From contig VGRJ01000004.1 of the NCBI GenBank assembly GCA_016875405.1, forward strand, positions 1-64,000: 64,000 nt of DNA. The letters are read 5' to 3'. Source of the stretch: Deltaproteobacteria bacterium (GTDB taxonomy: Bacteria > Myxococcota_A > Polyangia > Polyangiales > Polyangiaceae). Positions 52,378 through 58,436 of the stretch are shown here, in pieces. Below the pieces are notes generated by a model. That model worked only from the letters and a program-made list of their open reading frames with translations. It made no database searches and was not told where the DNA came from. The translations under genes were made by a program, and so were the position numbers. Each line of letters begins with the position of its first letter. Within the stretch, counting starts at the first letter, position 1.

Positions 52378-53808
52378 ATGAGCGATCTCCTAGACACCCA
52401 CGACGCGACCGCCCTCGCCGCGCTCGTTCGCGCGAACGAGGTGACCCCGCTCGAGCTCGTCGACGCCGCCATCGCGCGGATCGAGGCCGAGAACCCGTGC
52501 CTCAACGCCGTCGTGACGCCGATGTTCGAGGCGGCACGTACGCGCGCCCGAGGGCCCCTCCCCGACGGCCCCTTTCGCGGCGTGCCGTTCCTCATCAAGG
52601 ACCTCGGCCCCGCCTACGCCGGTGTCCGCATGACCGGAGGCTCAACGTTCCTCGCCGAGTACGTCCCCGATTGGACGGGCGAGCTCGTGACTCGCTTCGA
52701 GGCCGCCGGGCTGGTCGTCGTCGGCAAGACCAACACGCCCGAGTTCGGCATCGTCCCGACGACCGAGTCCAAGCACCTCGGGCCGTGCAAGAATCCCTGG
52801 GACCTCTCGCGCTCGCCGGGGGGCTCGAGCGGCGGCAGCGCGGCGGCGGTCGCGGCGAGGCTGGTCCCGATGGCGCACGCGAACGACGGCGGCGGCTCGA
52901 TCCGCATCCCAGCCTCGTGTTGCGGCGTGTTCGGCTTGAAGCCCACGCGCGCACGCACGCCGGTCGGCCCGCGGCTCGGCGACATCATGAGCGGCCTCGT
53001 GTGCGATCATGCCGTGACCCGCAGCGTCCGGGACAGCGCGGCCCTCCTCGACGCGACAGACGGCCTTGACCTGGGCGGCCCGTACGTCGCACCCCCGAAA
53101 TCGCGCCCGTTCCAGGACGAGGTGGGCGCCCCGCCCGGCAAGCTCCGCGTCGCGCTCATGACCTCGAGCTCGCTCGGCACCCCGGTCGCACCAGAATGCG
53201 TGCGCGCGGCAGAAGACGCGGCCAAGCTCTGCGAAGAGCTTGGTCACGAGGTGACGCTCGCGGCGCCGAAGATCGACGGATACCTCCTCACGCAGGCGTT
53301 CATGGCCGTGTGGACGAGCGGCCTCGCGATGACGATCGCAGGGTACACGCGGCTCGTCGGGCGCGCGCCCGCCGACGACGAGCTCGAGCCCTTGACCCGC
53401 GCCTACCTCGAGATGGGACAGCGCGTGAAGGCGCACGAGTATTTGCTCGCCGTCGCGCACCTCCAACAGCTCACCCGCACCCTCGCGGCCTTCATGGCGG
53501 AGTTCGACGTGCTGCTGACGCCGGTGCTCGGCGAGCTGCCGCTGCCGCTCGGGGAGCTCGGGAGCCTCGAGCCCGGGATGGCAAGCGCGCGTGCCGCCCA
53601 GCTCGTGCCGTTCACGCCGCTCGCCAACGTGACGGGACAGCCGGCCATGAGCGTGCCGCTCGCGTGGTCGGAGGGCGGCCTCCCGGTCGGCTCACACTTC
53701 ATCGCGCGACGAGGCGAGGAGGCGACGCTCTTTCGGCTCGCGGGGCAGCTCGAGGCGGCGCGTCCGTGGGCGGACCGAAGGCCGAGCGGCGCATCGGCTC
53801 GACGCTAA
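52378..53808 (+). CDS. Amidase-signature-family hydrolase
   Basis: 476 residues from ATG 52378. The Ser-cisSer-Lys triad is visible: Lys in [15 protein letters not shown], and the Gly/Ser block [20 protein letters not shown] with the nucleophile serine region [19 protein letters not shown]. Related enzymes include 6-aminohexanoate-cyclic-dimer hydrolase and aryl amidases; GatA is excluded by the missing gatC/gatB context and divergent C terminus. The substrate is unknown. It diverges from the arginine operon; the 80-base gap holds both promoters. Its stop overlaps the convergent aminotransferase stop. Confidence 0.88.
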
Positions 53809-55556
53809 GCCCGCAGGTGCAGCGGCGGCTCGCGCGACGAGCCCGTCGCGTCGCCCCGCAGCTCGGCGCGGATCTCGCCCGGAAGCGGGAACCACCGCAG
53901 CGCCTCGAAGTCCTCCGACCGCTCGAGATCGACCGGATCGTCGTCGAGCGAAGGCCCCGCCTCTAGGATTCCGCGGACCTCGTCGAGGTACTGCCCAAGG
54001 ACCCACTCGGGCTCGCGCGCGTGGCGCGTGCGGAACTCGAGCTTGCCCGAGACGTAGCGCAAATCCGTGAGGCGCATCGCGGGCTTCGGGCGCGCGCGAC
54101 GGTGCCGAAAGAGGCCGGTGGCCGGATCGAAATGGTAGTCGGGGAGCAGCCGCCAGCCGTGCTCGGCGACGAGGTGGACCGCCTTCAGGATGAACTCGAA
54201 GGTCGCCTCCGAGATGAAGTAGTTGAAATTCACGCGGACCCAGCCGGGTTTGATTCCCTCACAGCCACGCACGATCTCGCGCTCGAACTCGCGCGAGGTC
54301 TCGAGATCGATCCCAAGCAGGCGATGACCGTAAGGCCCGGCGCACGAGCAGCCAGCTCGCGCCTGGATCCCGAGCAGATCGTTGAGGAGCGCCGCGACGT
54401 AGTTGTGGTGCAGGTAGCGCGAGCCGTGATTCACCACGAACGAGACGATCGACAGCCGCCAGGCATTTCGGTTGCCGAGGATCTGCAGGTTCGGGTTCTC
54501 TTCCCAGCTCGCGATCGCCCGCCCGATGAAGTCGTGCTCGCGCGCTCGGATCGCCTCGACGCCGACCTCTTCTTTCAGCTGAAAGACGAGTCCGGCACGA
54601 ATCGACTCGAGGATCGCGGGCGTCCCGCCTTCTTCGCGATGCTCGACGTCGGCGAGGTAGCGGTGCTCTTCGGGGTTCACGTACGCGACGGTGCCTCCAC
54701 CGGGGACCGCGGGGACGAGGTTCTTGAAGAGCGCCTTCTTGGCGACGAGGAGCCCCGGCGTGCCAGGGCCTCCGATGAACTTGTGCGGAGAGAGGAAGAC
54801 CGCGTCCTTGTAGATGAGGTGGCCGTCCTCGCCATCGTCGGCCATGTTCATCTCGATTTTGACGTAGGGTCCCGCCGCGGCGAAGTCCCAAAACGAGAGC
54901 GCCCCATGGCGGTGGAGGAGCGCCGAGACCGCGCGGGTGTTCGTACCGATGCCGGTCACGTTCGACGCAGCCGAGAAGCTCCCGATCTTGAGCGGGCGCG
55001 CGGCGTACCGCACGAGCGCCGCGTCGAGCTCCGTCAAGTTGATCTTGCCGTCGTGCCCCTCGGAGATGGTGACGACCTCGCAGATCGACTCACGCCATGG
55101 CAGCTCGTTCGAGTGGTGCTCGTAAGGGCCGATGAACACCACCGGACGCTCGTCTGCCGGGATGAGTCGCGACAGGCCGTAGCGCGCGTCGAGGTTCCTC
55201 GGCAGTCGCAGGTTCATGACATCGATTAATCGATTGATCGCGCCGGTCGCCCCGGAGCCGCAGAAGATCACCGCGTCGGACTCGTTGGCTCCGACCGCTT
55301 CGCGGACGATGGCGCGAGCGTCCTCGCGAAAGCGAGTCGTCTGCATGCCCGTCCCGGACTGCTCGGTGTGCGTGTTCGCATAGAGCGGCATCACCTCGTC
55401 CCGCAGGAAATCCTCGATGAACGTGAGCGACCTGCCCGACGCCGTGTAGTCAGCGTAGGTAACCCGGCGCGGGCCGTACGGGCCCTCGATCACCTGGTCG
55501 TCGCCGATCACGCTGTTCCGGATCGTCTCGATGAGGCGCGCCGCGTGGTCGTTCAT
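53805..55556 (-). CDS. Class-V aminotransferase-fold PLP enzyme (cysteine desulfurase-like)
   Basis: 583 residues from ATG 55556. [72 protein letters not shown], and the PLP lysine in [20 protein letters not shown] place it in the SufS/Csd superfamily. A Cys-containing active loop CSCAGPYGH is at the expected place. It is about 170 residues longer than SufS, with an extra C-terminal domain (from [19 protein letters not shown]). Substrate unknown; it diverges from the small CNCGHL gene. Confidence 0.87.
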
Positions 55557-55647
55557 GGAATTCGTTATACCCCCTCGGACGCGCAGGTGGCGAGGGGCGG
55601 CGCCGGGGCACGGGCGCGACCAGACCTCGCGCGCTATGTTCATGGTC

Positions 55648-56082
55648 ATGAGCACGAATCGAGTCGCCGCGCTTCGGCAGACTGCCGCCCGCCTTCGGCT
55701 GGGCGCCTCGTACCAGTGGGGACACTTCGGGGCCTGCAACTGCGGGCACCTCGCGCAGACGCTGACCCGACTCTCCCGTGAGGACATCCACCGGATCGCG
55801 GTGGAGCGCGCGCGAGACTGGGGGACGGCCGCGGTCGAGTACTGCCCGACGAGCGGCTACCCCATCGACCACGTGCTGACGCAGATCGTGAAGGCGGGGT
55901 TCTCGCTCGACGACGTGGCGCACCTCGAGGAGCTGAGCGCGCCGAGGGTGCTCGCGGAGCTCCCCGAAGGCCGCCGCCACCTGCGCCGGAACGCCCGCGA
56001 GGACGTGATCACCTACCTGCTCGCGTGGGCTGATGTCCTCGAGCGCGAGGCCGGCCTCGAACTCCCGCTCGCCGCCGAGTGA
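55648..56082 (+). CDS. Conserved hypothetical protein with CNCGH motif
   Basis: 144 residues from ATG 55648; in-frame ATGs at 55636 and 55642 also occur. It is soluble and helical, with conserved-looking YQWGHFGACNCGHLAQTLT and YCPTSGYPIDHVLTQIVKAG, and three cysteines that could bind a metal. From memory similar proteins exist in Bacteroidetes and myxobacteria without assigned function. It diverges from the class-V aminotransferase gene, with 91 bases between, possibly functional partners. Confidence 0.68.
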   Translation: MSTNRVAALRQTAARLRLGASYQWGHFGACNCGHLAQTLTRLSREDIHRIAVERARDWGTAAVEYCPTSGYPIDHVLTQIVKAGFSLDDVAHLEELSAPRVLAELPEGRRHLRRNAREDVITYLLAWADVLEREAGLELPLAAE

Positions 56083-56149
56083 GAGCGGCCCCTCTGGCGT
56101 TCGCCGCGCCGGTCACACTTCGGCCCGGTCGGGCGACGTATCGCTCGGA

Positions 56150-57145
56150 ATGAACGCTCCCCCACCACTTGACGTCGAACCGTGCGAGCCTGGGGATACC
56201 GTGGACGTGCGCGCGCGCTCTCGTGCCCTGCTCGGCTCGACCGAGGTGAGGCTGCTCCTCGAGGGCCTCGTGCGGCGCAAGGTCCCCGCGAGCGAGGTCG
56301 ACGACCTCGTGCAGACAGTGCTGTGCGAGGCGCTCGCGAGCGAGCGCTTCCCCGAGGAGGACGAGGCGCTCCGCAAGTGGGTCGTCGGCATCGCCCGGCA
56401 CAAAATCGCCGATCATCACCGAAGGACCGTCCATCGGCGCACCATCGAGCTTGACGACGAGCACCCGGATCTCGACGCGAGGGACGTGCAAGCGACCTCC
56501 TCGCGCGATCTCGCTCGCTGGGCCGACGAGCAGGTAGGTGACGACGCGACCGCGAAGCGCACCCTCGAGTGGATGGCGCGCGAGGGCGAAGGGGAGACGC
56601 TCGCCCACATCGCGGCCGAGGCGGAGTTGCCGCCCGATCAGGTGAGGCAGCGTGTCTCCCGGCTCCGTCGCTGGATGCGAAAGCGTTGGGCGCGCGAGCT
56701 CGCCGCGGCGGTGGCGCTGGTCGGCGTCGCCCTCTTCGTGTGGTGGCGCACGCGCGACCAATCGCCGGTCGCGCCATTCACACCGGTGTTCGAGACGCCA
56801 TCCGCTCGCCCGCCGGAGCGACCTGCAGGAGAGGTGCCCTCGGCGACGACGTCCGAGGTCGCGCCGCCGGTCAGCGCGGCCCCGTCGGCGAGCGAGGCGC
56901 CGCCGGCCCCGCAGCCCGAGAGCGCGCGACCCGAGAAGCCGCAACCGGAGACAGCGCGCCCCAACAAGCCTCAGCCGAAGACGCCTCCACGTTCGCCGCG
57001 AACGAAGCGCCTCCCCAAGGAAGCACCGCCGAACCTGCCGCTCGACAAGAAGGGCCGGTACGATGAAGCACCCCAGCAGCGAAAGAACGACGTCGAGCCC
57101 AAGCGTCGAGCGATGAAGGATCGCTTCGACACGCCGGCGCTCTGA
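56150..57145 (+). CDS. Membrane-tethered sigma-70-family (ECF-like) factor
   Basis: 331 residues from ATG 56150. Region 2-like helices at about 36-93 (VPASEVDDLVQTVLCEALAS, ALRKWVVGIARHKIADHHRR) and region 4-like helix-turn-helix at about 135-178 (ETLAHIAAEAELPPDQVRQR, VSRLRRWMRKRW). One membrane helix follows directly (ELAAAVALVGVALFVWWR, about 184-199), and then about 130 residues rich in Pro, Glu, Lys and Arg. The sigma domain would be on the inner face and the tail outside. It is followed 19 bases later by a lipoprotein gene. Confidence 0.78.
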   Translation: MNAPPPLDVEPCEPGDTVDVRARSRALLGSTEVRLLLEGLVRRKVPASEVDDLVQTVLCEALASERFPEEDEALRKWVVGIARHKIADHHRRTVHRRTIELDDEHPDLDARDVQATSSRDLARWADEQVGDDATAKRTLEWMAREGEGETLAHIAAEAELPPDQVRQRVSRLRRWMRKRWARELAAAVALVGVALFVWWRTRDQSPVAPFTPVFETPSARPPERPAGEVPSATTSEVAPPVSAAPSASEAPPAPQPESARPEKPQPETARPNKPQPKTPPRSPRTKRLPKEAPPNLPLDKKGRYDEAPQQRKNDVEPKRRAMKDRFDTPAL

Positions 57146-57164
57146 AGCCTACCGAGCCGACCCC

Positions 57165-57803
57165 GTGATGCCCCATTACCTCCGACCGATCGCGCCCTGC
57201 CTCCTCCTCGCCCTCGCATCTTGCGTTGAGCCACCGCACGCGTCCGCTCCCCCGCCTCCCGCGCCGACGGCCCGACCTCGCGTATCGTCGGGGACGGCGC
57301 TCGAGCGCTACCTGCCGCTCATCGATGGGCAGCTCTACCAGTACGAGTTCGAGACCGGAGATGGCCAGCGCGGGCTCCTCTCGGCGCGCATTCAGCGAGC
57401 CGACGCGCGCCGCGGCGCCTGGCTCCTCCCCGGTGGCGGGAACGTCTTCGTCTACGCCGAGGACGGCGTGATGAGCGAGGGCAGCGATGCGGCCACGTAC
57501 CTCCTGAAGGCGCCACTCACCGTTGGGAATCGCTGGCCGGGGGCTCAGGGCAGCGTCGTCGATATCCGACGCCTCGATGTCACCGTCACGGTCCCCGCGG
57601 GGACCTTCTCCGGCTGCGTGGAGACGCACGAGGCGCGGGGCGGTGACATCCCGCGGTCGGTCGTCGCGACCTTCTGTCCAGACGTGGGGATGGTGTCGCG
57701 CGCCGTTACGAGCGGCCCGAAGCGTGAGACCCTCACGCTGAAGAGCTTTGGAGATCCGGTCGATCTCGGGCCTGACGGCGTGCGCGTCGTGCGCGAGGAT
57801 TGA
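57165..57803 (+). CDS. Hypothetical lipoprotein downstream of the sigma factor
   Basis: 212 residues from GTG 57165 or ATG 57168. The leader YLRPIAPCLLLALASCVEPP gives a clear lipobox (LASC). The mature domain is all-beta: YLPLIDGQLYQYEFETGDGQ, TVTVPAGTFSGCVETHEARG with a conserved-looking P-A-G-T-F-x-x-C pattern, as seen in some exported domains of unknown function. It probably shares a transcript with the tethered sigma factor and could be its target or sensor partner. Confidence 0.7.
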   Translation: MMPHYLRPIAPCLLLALASCVEPPHASAPPPPAPTARPRVSSGTALERYLPLIDGQLYQYEFETGDGQRGLLSARIQRADARRGAWLLPGGGNVFVYAEDGVMSEGSDAATYLLKAPLTVGNRWPGAQGSVVDIRRLDVTVTVPAGTFSGCVETHEARGGDIPRSVVATFCPDVGMVSRAVTSGPKRETLTLKSFGDPVDLGPDGVRVVRED

Positions 57804-57827: not shown

Positions 57828-58436
57828 ATGACGGAGTCGATGAGCACTCACTCGATCGACGAGCTTCACCGTGAAGTCGACCGTCGGGCTGCCGAGGTCG
57901 CGCGCCTTAACGAGGGTCGGCTTCAATGCCGTCGTGGCTGCTCGGGCTGTTGCGTCGACGACCTCACGGTCTTCGAGGTCGAGGCCACCATCCTCCGCGC
58001 GCGGCATGCCGAGCTGCTCGCGTTCGGGGCTCCCCACCCCGAGGGCGCCTGCGCGTTCCTCGACGCCGGGGGCTCGTGCCGGATCTACCCGGACCGCCCG
58101 TACGTCTGCCGGACGCAAGGCCTGCCGCTTCGCTGGCTCGACGAGGACCGGAGCGCCGAGTGCCGCGACGTCTGCGAGCTGAACGACGCTCCGATCGAGG
58201 GTGAATGGCCCACGATCCTCGAGCTACCCGAGGAGGCCTGCTTTACCCTCGGAGAGCCGGAGACACGCCTCCAAGCGCTGCAGCGAGCGCTGTCGGTCGA
58301 TGACCCACTCGGAAGAGTAAGGCTCCGCGATTTGTTCGAGCGCCCCGTTGGGTCGCCCCGTTTAACGGATGAACCCACTGATCCGACAACTTCTTCGACA
58401 GCGACAGCTTGTTCGAAAGCCAACGTTATCCGGTAA
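57828..58436 (+). CDS. YkgJ-family cysteine cluster protein
   Basis: 202 residues. The YkgJ/UPF0153 pattern is present: LQCRRGCSGCCVDDLTVFEV, GACAFLDAGGSCRIYPDRPY and VCRTQGLPL, giving the conserved CxxxCxxCC...C...C...C set thought to bind zinc or iron. Members are cytoplasmic and of unknown function. The last 25 residues (after SPRLTDEP) come from DNA with lower GC than the body and look unlike the family, so the natural end may be earlier or altered by a frameshift. Confidence 0.85.
   Translation: MTESMSTHSIDELHREVDRRAAEVARLNEGRLQCRRGCSGCCVDDLTVFEVEATILRARHAELLAFGAPHPEGACAFLDAGGSCRIYPDRPYVCRTQGLPLRWLDEDRSAECRDVCELNDAPIEGEWPTILELPEEACFTLGEPETRLQALQRALSVDDPLGRVRLRDLFERPVGSPRLTDEPTDPTTSSTATACSKANVIR

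Follow-up and report, generated by a model that had tools for sequence, protein, structure and literature searches.

The window analysed here, a stretch of 64,000 nucleotides from a myxobacterial genome, contains a gene for an extracytoplasmic function (ECF) sigma factor in which sigma regions 2 and 4 are joined almost directly to a membrane helix and a basic, Pro-rich tail, and a conserved ECF-type promoter precedes this gene. The assignments of the sigma factor, its anchor and its promoter are well supported, and the reading of its function to which we lean, with moderate confidence, is that of a self-activating envelope sigma which its membrane tether keeps inactive until proteolysis frees it, in the manner of IutY. 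The features of the locus are as follows.

56112 to 56138, forward strand: ECF-type promoter, with a -35-like element GTCACACT at 56112-56119, 14 nt, and a -10-like element CGACG at 56134-56138.
56150 to 57145, forward strand: gene for the membrane-tethered ECF sigma, an intact open reading frame of 331 amino acids (stop codon included in the coordinates).
56207 to 56455, forward strand: sigma region 2 (residues 20-102), placed by Pfam PF04542, the family alignment and the AlphaFold (AF2) model.
56501 to 56680, forward strand: sigma region 4 (residues 118-177), placed by the TIGR02937 span, the alignment and AF2 helices at 151-158 and from 162 onward.
56696 to 56746, forward strand: single transmembrane helix (residues 183-199), placed by hydropathy and the AF2 model.
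56747 to 57142, forward strand: basic Pro-rich tail, predicted to lie outside the cytoplasm, without the Cys-pair hairpin of most homologues.
57165 to 57803, forward strand: lipoprotein gene of 212 amino acids with a GTG start, the lipobox LASC and a lipidation candidate at Cys20 (57222-57224).

The fusion of sigma regions 2 and 4 to a membrane helix and a basic Pro-rich tail, proposed in an earlier note on this DNA, was confirmed by Pfam, TIGR02937, AlphaFold and hydropathy. Region 2 matches Pfam Sigma70_r2 above the cut-off (E 1.1e-7, residues 36-93), and the ECF model TIGR02937 covers regions 2-4 (residues 48-179, E 3e-9) with a score of 36.7 bits that lies slightly below its curated cut-off of 42.9. 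Profile and structure matches agree that the protein has sigma2 and sigma4 but no sigma3 domain. AlphaFold, given 43 family members, modelled sigma2 and sigma4 with pLDDT mostly above 90. The solved structures that resemble the model most closely, E. coli sigmaE and M. tuberculosis SigH and SigL, belong to the ECF sigmas, as do the profile matches. The helix-turn-helix of region 4 ends in VRQRVSRLRR and is followed after a gap of ~10 residues by the membrane helix, ELAAAVALVGVALFVWW, with a mean hydropathy of 2.0; in the model the last helix is unbroken from residue 162 to 202, so that the sigma4 recognition helix and the membrane helix form one rod. The tail of 132 amino acids (23% Pro, net charge +7, no Cys) is disordered in the model, and a search of it for known domains returned low-complexity similarity only (GltJ, far below cut-off).

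The earlier note had named loss of key DNA- or core-binding residues as grounds for abandoning the assignment, and no such loss was seen. The family alignment keeps D52, V54, Q55, W77, K85 and R91 in region 2, and R144, E145, G148, R166, R168, V169, R171 and R173 in region 4, positions at which sigmas typically bind core or contact DNA. A Pfam scan of the window protein and of one homologue (L059) gave no FecR match, and no zinc-finger domain was found between sigma4 and the membrane of the window protein by Pfam, helix spacing or the model. Judged by its sequence, it looks like a working sigma that carries its own tether and has no detectable anti-sigma domain of the zinc-finger or FecR type.

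A comparison of 144 related genomes revealed a close homologue of this sigma in 62 of them, often as two or three paralogues, and 61 sigma loci were extracted for analysis. Among 377 genomes drawn from the phylum, matches with E <=1e-12 were confined to the window's own order, where they fell in family f1 and in families f6 and f8, plus one weak match in f5; the named records of the sigma family come from Labilithrix and other Myxococcales. The fusion is kept throughout, with a hydrophobic helix at the equivalent place in all 61 homologues that starts, where the VRQR motif is present, 15-21 residues past its beginning. In ~42 of the 61 the helix is followed by a short helical-hairpin motif, LRxxALxxC-x6/7-C-LxxLDxAxxLDPxGD, with a Pro-rich tail after it; Lys is the last residue in half of all tails. 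Pfam found neither a TPR nor any other family in the hairpin of homologue L059. We read this hairpin as TPR-like, and it could be a redox or ligand sensor, but the window protein must manage without it: the window copy and that of its nearest relative, G004, have lost the hairpin, which is kept by the third member of the genus with a sigma homologue, G002. The hairpin is also missing from a clade of sigma paralogues (L093, L101-L104 and L108), most members of which have two Cys on the cytoplasmic side. Tail sequence is variable among homologues and less conserved than the hairpin, so the earlier suggestion that the tail is the sensor gains little from this comparison, given that the more conserved element is absent from the window copy.

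The regions upstream of the sigma homologues share two boxes at a fixed distance, GTCACACT-N14-CGATG or CGACG (GTCACACT-N14-CGAYG). A looser form of this motif, GTCAC-N16..18-CGA[CT][GA], was found upstream of 51 of the 61 sigma genes, compared with 0.3 on average, and never more than 2, across 200 dinucleotide shuffles; this frequency and the rigid spacing point to an autoregulated promoter of the ECF type. The window copy ends 11 nt 5' of the sigma start codon, inside the interval (56083-56149) where the earlier note had placed a promoter for the gene, and no other site in the 5.02-Mb genome matches perfectly; a scan found no housekeeping sigma-70 promoter. The conserved promoter is absent upstream of the sigma gene of G004, which belongs to the same genus. 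At that locus (L052, contig C19) the sigma gene shares 4 nt with the end of an aminotransferase-like gene upstream of it. In the window a class-V aminotransferase/cysteine-desulfurase-like gene lies at 53805-55787 on the reverse strand, and such genes are near the sigma gene in two other genomes of the genus (cluster c18).

Several observations link this motif to the sigma factor itself. The 62 sigma-bearing genomes, which tend to be larger, contain 138 copies of the strict GTCACACT motif and the other 82 contain 33, and matches with a start codon 6-8 nt downstream number 77 and 4, respectively. Counted by genome, 41 of the 62 that hold a close sigma homologue have the motif in this leaderless position, compared with 4 of the 82 that do not (Fisher 7e-16, a value that overstates independence, since sigma and motif each cluster in the phylogeny and the sigma-bearing genomes tend to be larger), and one of the four exceptions, G055, has sigma fragments on two contigs. 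Promoter spacing also follows the sigma phylogeny: promoters of 26 nt account for 6 of the 7 with a motif in one paralogue subclade and 1 of 44 elsewhere (p 3e-6), the remainder outside the subclade being 27 or 28 nt. The loci with this promoter, one base shorter than usual, are those of the paralogue clade without the hairpin described above. The covariation of spacing with sigma subclade ties the motif to the sigma and is what direct recognition predicts, though it is not proof. There is thus strong support from comparative sequence analysis for the proposal that the sigma reads GTCACACT-N14-CGAYG, both for its own gene, as positive feedback, and, in larger relatives, for genes that encode a set of exported envelope proteins.

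The genes that follow the motif suggest what this regulon does. Among 80 fetched regions the commonest distance from motif to predicted start was 7 or 8 nt (36 cases), as expected of leaderless transcripts. Of 40 target genes of at least 100 codons with a motif 5-9 nt before the start, 38 specify a protein with a hydrophobic N-terminus and 20 one with a lipobox, compared with 309 and 88 of 559 neighbouring background genes. Target families in sigma-bearing relatives include L,D-transpeptidases (YkuD) and DUF3160 lipoproteins, and further targets are a C39-like peptidase fused to a putative metallopeptidase region, along with what may be an alpha/beta hydrolase, which scores below the Pfam cut-off. 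Exported proteins of the DUF3160 type recur behind the promoter in several genomes (L134 by Pfam; L136, L144 and L199 by eye). A divergent L,D-transpeptidase gene adjoins the sigma gene in nine loci (eight by clustering and L057 by sequence), in seven of which a separate copy of the motif stands 7 nt ahead of the transpeptidase start; like promoters stand back to back between the two genes at L057, L059, L060, L068, L069, L071 and L083. Hydrolase-like genes flank the sigma gene in 16 loci. Together, these sequence features suggest that the regulon consists largely of genes for exported cell-envelope proteins.

A search of the window's own genome found no second convincing target. A relaxed pattern, for which the control pattern was not CpG-matched, gave 42 matches. 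Loci were obtained for 30 of these, and wherever a start codon was usable, the match seemed to be intragenic or no export signal was present; a regulon beyond the sigma's own operon was rejected for this genome on these grounds.

The gene that probably shares this operon encodes the lipoprotein, whose GTG start at 57165 is 19 nt past the sigma stop codon, as the earlier note had described, with no terminator-like site between the two genes. That note had also put the lipoprotein forward as a partner that might sense a signal, and such a protein might act as a brake on the sigma's outside tail, like RseB or MucB on RseA or MucA. Adjacency and likely co-transcription in the window genus favour this idea, as does a structure model that places the lipoprotein in the half-barrel class of YmcC and LolA, which takes in LppX and RseB-like proteins. 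However, its scores against MucB (Z 7.8) and RseB (Z 7.2) are at an ordinary level, and the best structure matches (Z 14) are uncharacterised lipoproteins of Bacteroidetes. In addition, homologues occur in 104 of the 144 genomes, including some in which no close sigma homologue was found, and they adjoin the sigma gene only in the window genome and G004, plus probably G002, where a contig break separates a shortened sigma from the basic Pro-rich tail and the lipoprotein. Outside the genus they lie at distant positions (in G087, for instance, at 5.90 and 13.68 Mb for sigma and lipoprotein), and the conserved motif was absent before lipoprotein homologues at 20 loci. The lipoprotein was therefore rejected as a conserved partner outside the genus, and of the pairing that had been proposed together with the fusion only the latter is conserved beyond it. 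A sensor role in the window genus is possible but not favoured, and we regard it as quite unlikely. The lipoprotein gene is most simply seen as an output gene which joined the sigma's operon in the window genus, because the targets in relatives are largely exported proteins and lipoproteins and because this operon is the only convincing target in the window genome. The lipoprotein family is common across the order, and in several large genomes its gene lies beside one read as a tryptophan 2,3-dioxygenase, which comes after it (L039, L041, L044, L046 and L047). The next gene downstream in the window (57828-58436) encodes a CxxCxxCC (PF03692) putative zinc/iron-chelating protein.

In the mechanism that we favour, the sigma carries its own membrane tether in place of a separate anti-sigma factor. 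While tethered, sigma4 would be held against the membrane, off promoter DNA and unavailable to RNA polymerase. Envelope stress would be sensed by the outside part, this signal would lead to cleavage in or near the membrane by a site-2 protease, and the freed sigma would fire its own operon, as positive feedback, together with envelope genes. By analogy with IutY, proteolytic release is plausible. Proteases of the M50 family are nearly universal; several are present in the window's own genome (218 contigs, 5.02 Mb), a finding that is permissive only and points to nothing specific. The earlier idea that the fusion replaces an anti-sigma factor holds up insofar as the fusion is invariant and has no detectable zinc-finger or FecR domain; a sensor role for the lipoprotein is not supported. 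The motif-less sigma gene of G004, with its overlap of the upstream gene, and the lack of a second convincing target in the window genome both count against the favoured mechanism, as does the prospect that another regulator reads the motif. If such a regulator controlled both the sigma and the envelope genes, it could account for the tie between sigma and motif, which is an association; however, two boxes at fixed spacing placed 7-8 nt before a start codon are typical of ECF promoters, and both the presence of the motif across genomes and its spacing track the sigma, so we consider this explanation improbable.

The anchor itself can be read in other ways. The helix and tail could be a passive device for localisation or turnover, with the sigma controlled by its level of transcription, through its own promoter and other inputs. 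A poorly conserved tail, the lack of a Cys hairpin in some clades and the autoregulated promoters that are the rule in the family all fit this possibility, and so does the replacement of the promoter by a gene overlap in G004, but the tight spacing between sigma4 and the membrane in all 61 homologues is beyond what passive localisation would need, and we regard this reading as unlikely. Alternatively, the anchored sigma might be active in the membrane, recruiting RNA polymerase and transcribing genes for exported proteins there. ToxR and CadC provide precedent as membrane-bound DNA-binding regulators, the anchor is never lost among the homologues, almost every target is an exported protein, and the promoter positions suit leaderless transcripts. 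On the other hand, exported targets are expected of any envelope-stress sigma, the recognition helix in the model is continuous with the membrane helix and would leave little room for promoter DNA, and IutY, the tethered ECF sigma that has been studied, requires cleavage (PMC5411451). Activity in the membrane is a doubtful prospect in our judgement, and its extension, in which an unreleased sigma brings RNA polymerase to the inner membrane so that leaderless mRNAs for exported proteins couple transcription to secretion, is highly improbable.

To our knowledge, very few one-piece membrane-tethered sigmas have been studied (IutY and SCO4117), and a search of the open-access literature found no report of the tethered architecture, the promoter or the target set in myxobacteria. 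This family offers a minimal case of how a tether alone, with no recognisable anti-sigma domain, could silence a sigma. The conserved promoter supplies a ready reporter and, in myxobacteria with very large genomes, a predicted target list that points to cell-wall remodelling by L,D-transpeptidases, and the question of whether the sigma is released or acts in place becomes directly testable.

Among known systems, IutY of Pseudomonas putida (ECF243) is a sigma/anti-sigma hybrid whose sigma is released when Prc and RseP cleave it (PMC5411451, PMC8999054), and like the window protein it combines a cytosolic ECF sigma, a single membrane helix and a periplasmic part in one polypeptide. IutY, however, has a periplasmic FecR-type anti-sigma domain and adjoins the gene for a TonB-dependent receptor, whereas the window protein has no FecR match, the outside part in its family is a Pro-rich tail that in most members includes a hairpin with a Cys pair, and the predicted targets are envelope genes. 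The actinobacterial tethered ECF sigmas ECF48, ECF52 (SCO4117 of Streptomyces coelicolor) and ECF53 (PMC5826349, PMC8999054) share with it a C-terminal membrane region, a Pro-rich outside extension and putative autoregulation; they differ in having a zinc-finger anti-sigma domain before the membrane, where in the window family sigma4 meets the membrane directly, and ECF52 also has a carbohydrate-binding domain. The family may fall in ECF220 or ECF276, myxobacterial groups that have representatives in Sorangium cellulosum and are tabulated with regulatory extensions of unclassified mechanism (PMC8999054 table). The RseA/sigmaE/RseB system resembles it in holding an envelope-directed ECF sigma at the membrane and in including a lipoprotein of the broad RseB/LolA fold class, but there the sigma and its anchor are separate proteins. 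One-piece tethered ECF sigmas are thus already known, and the window family is a variant that joins sigma4 almost directly to the membrane.
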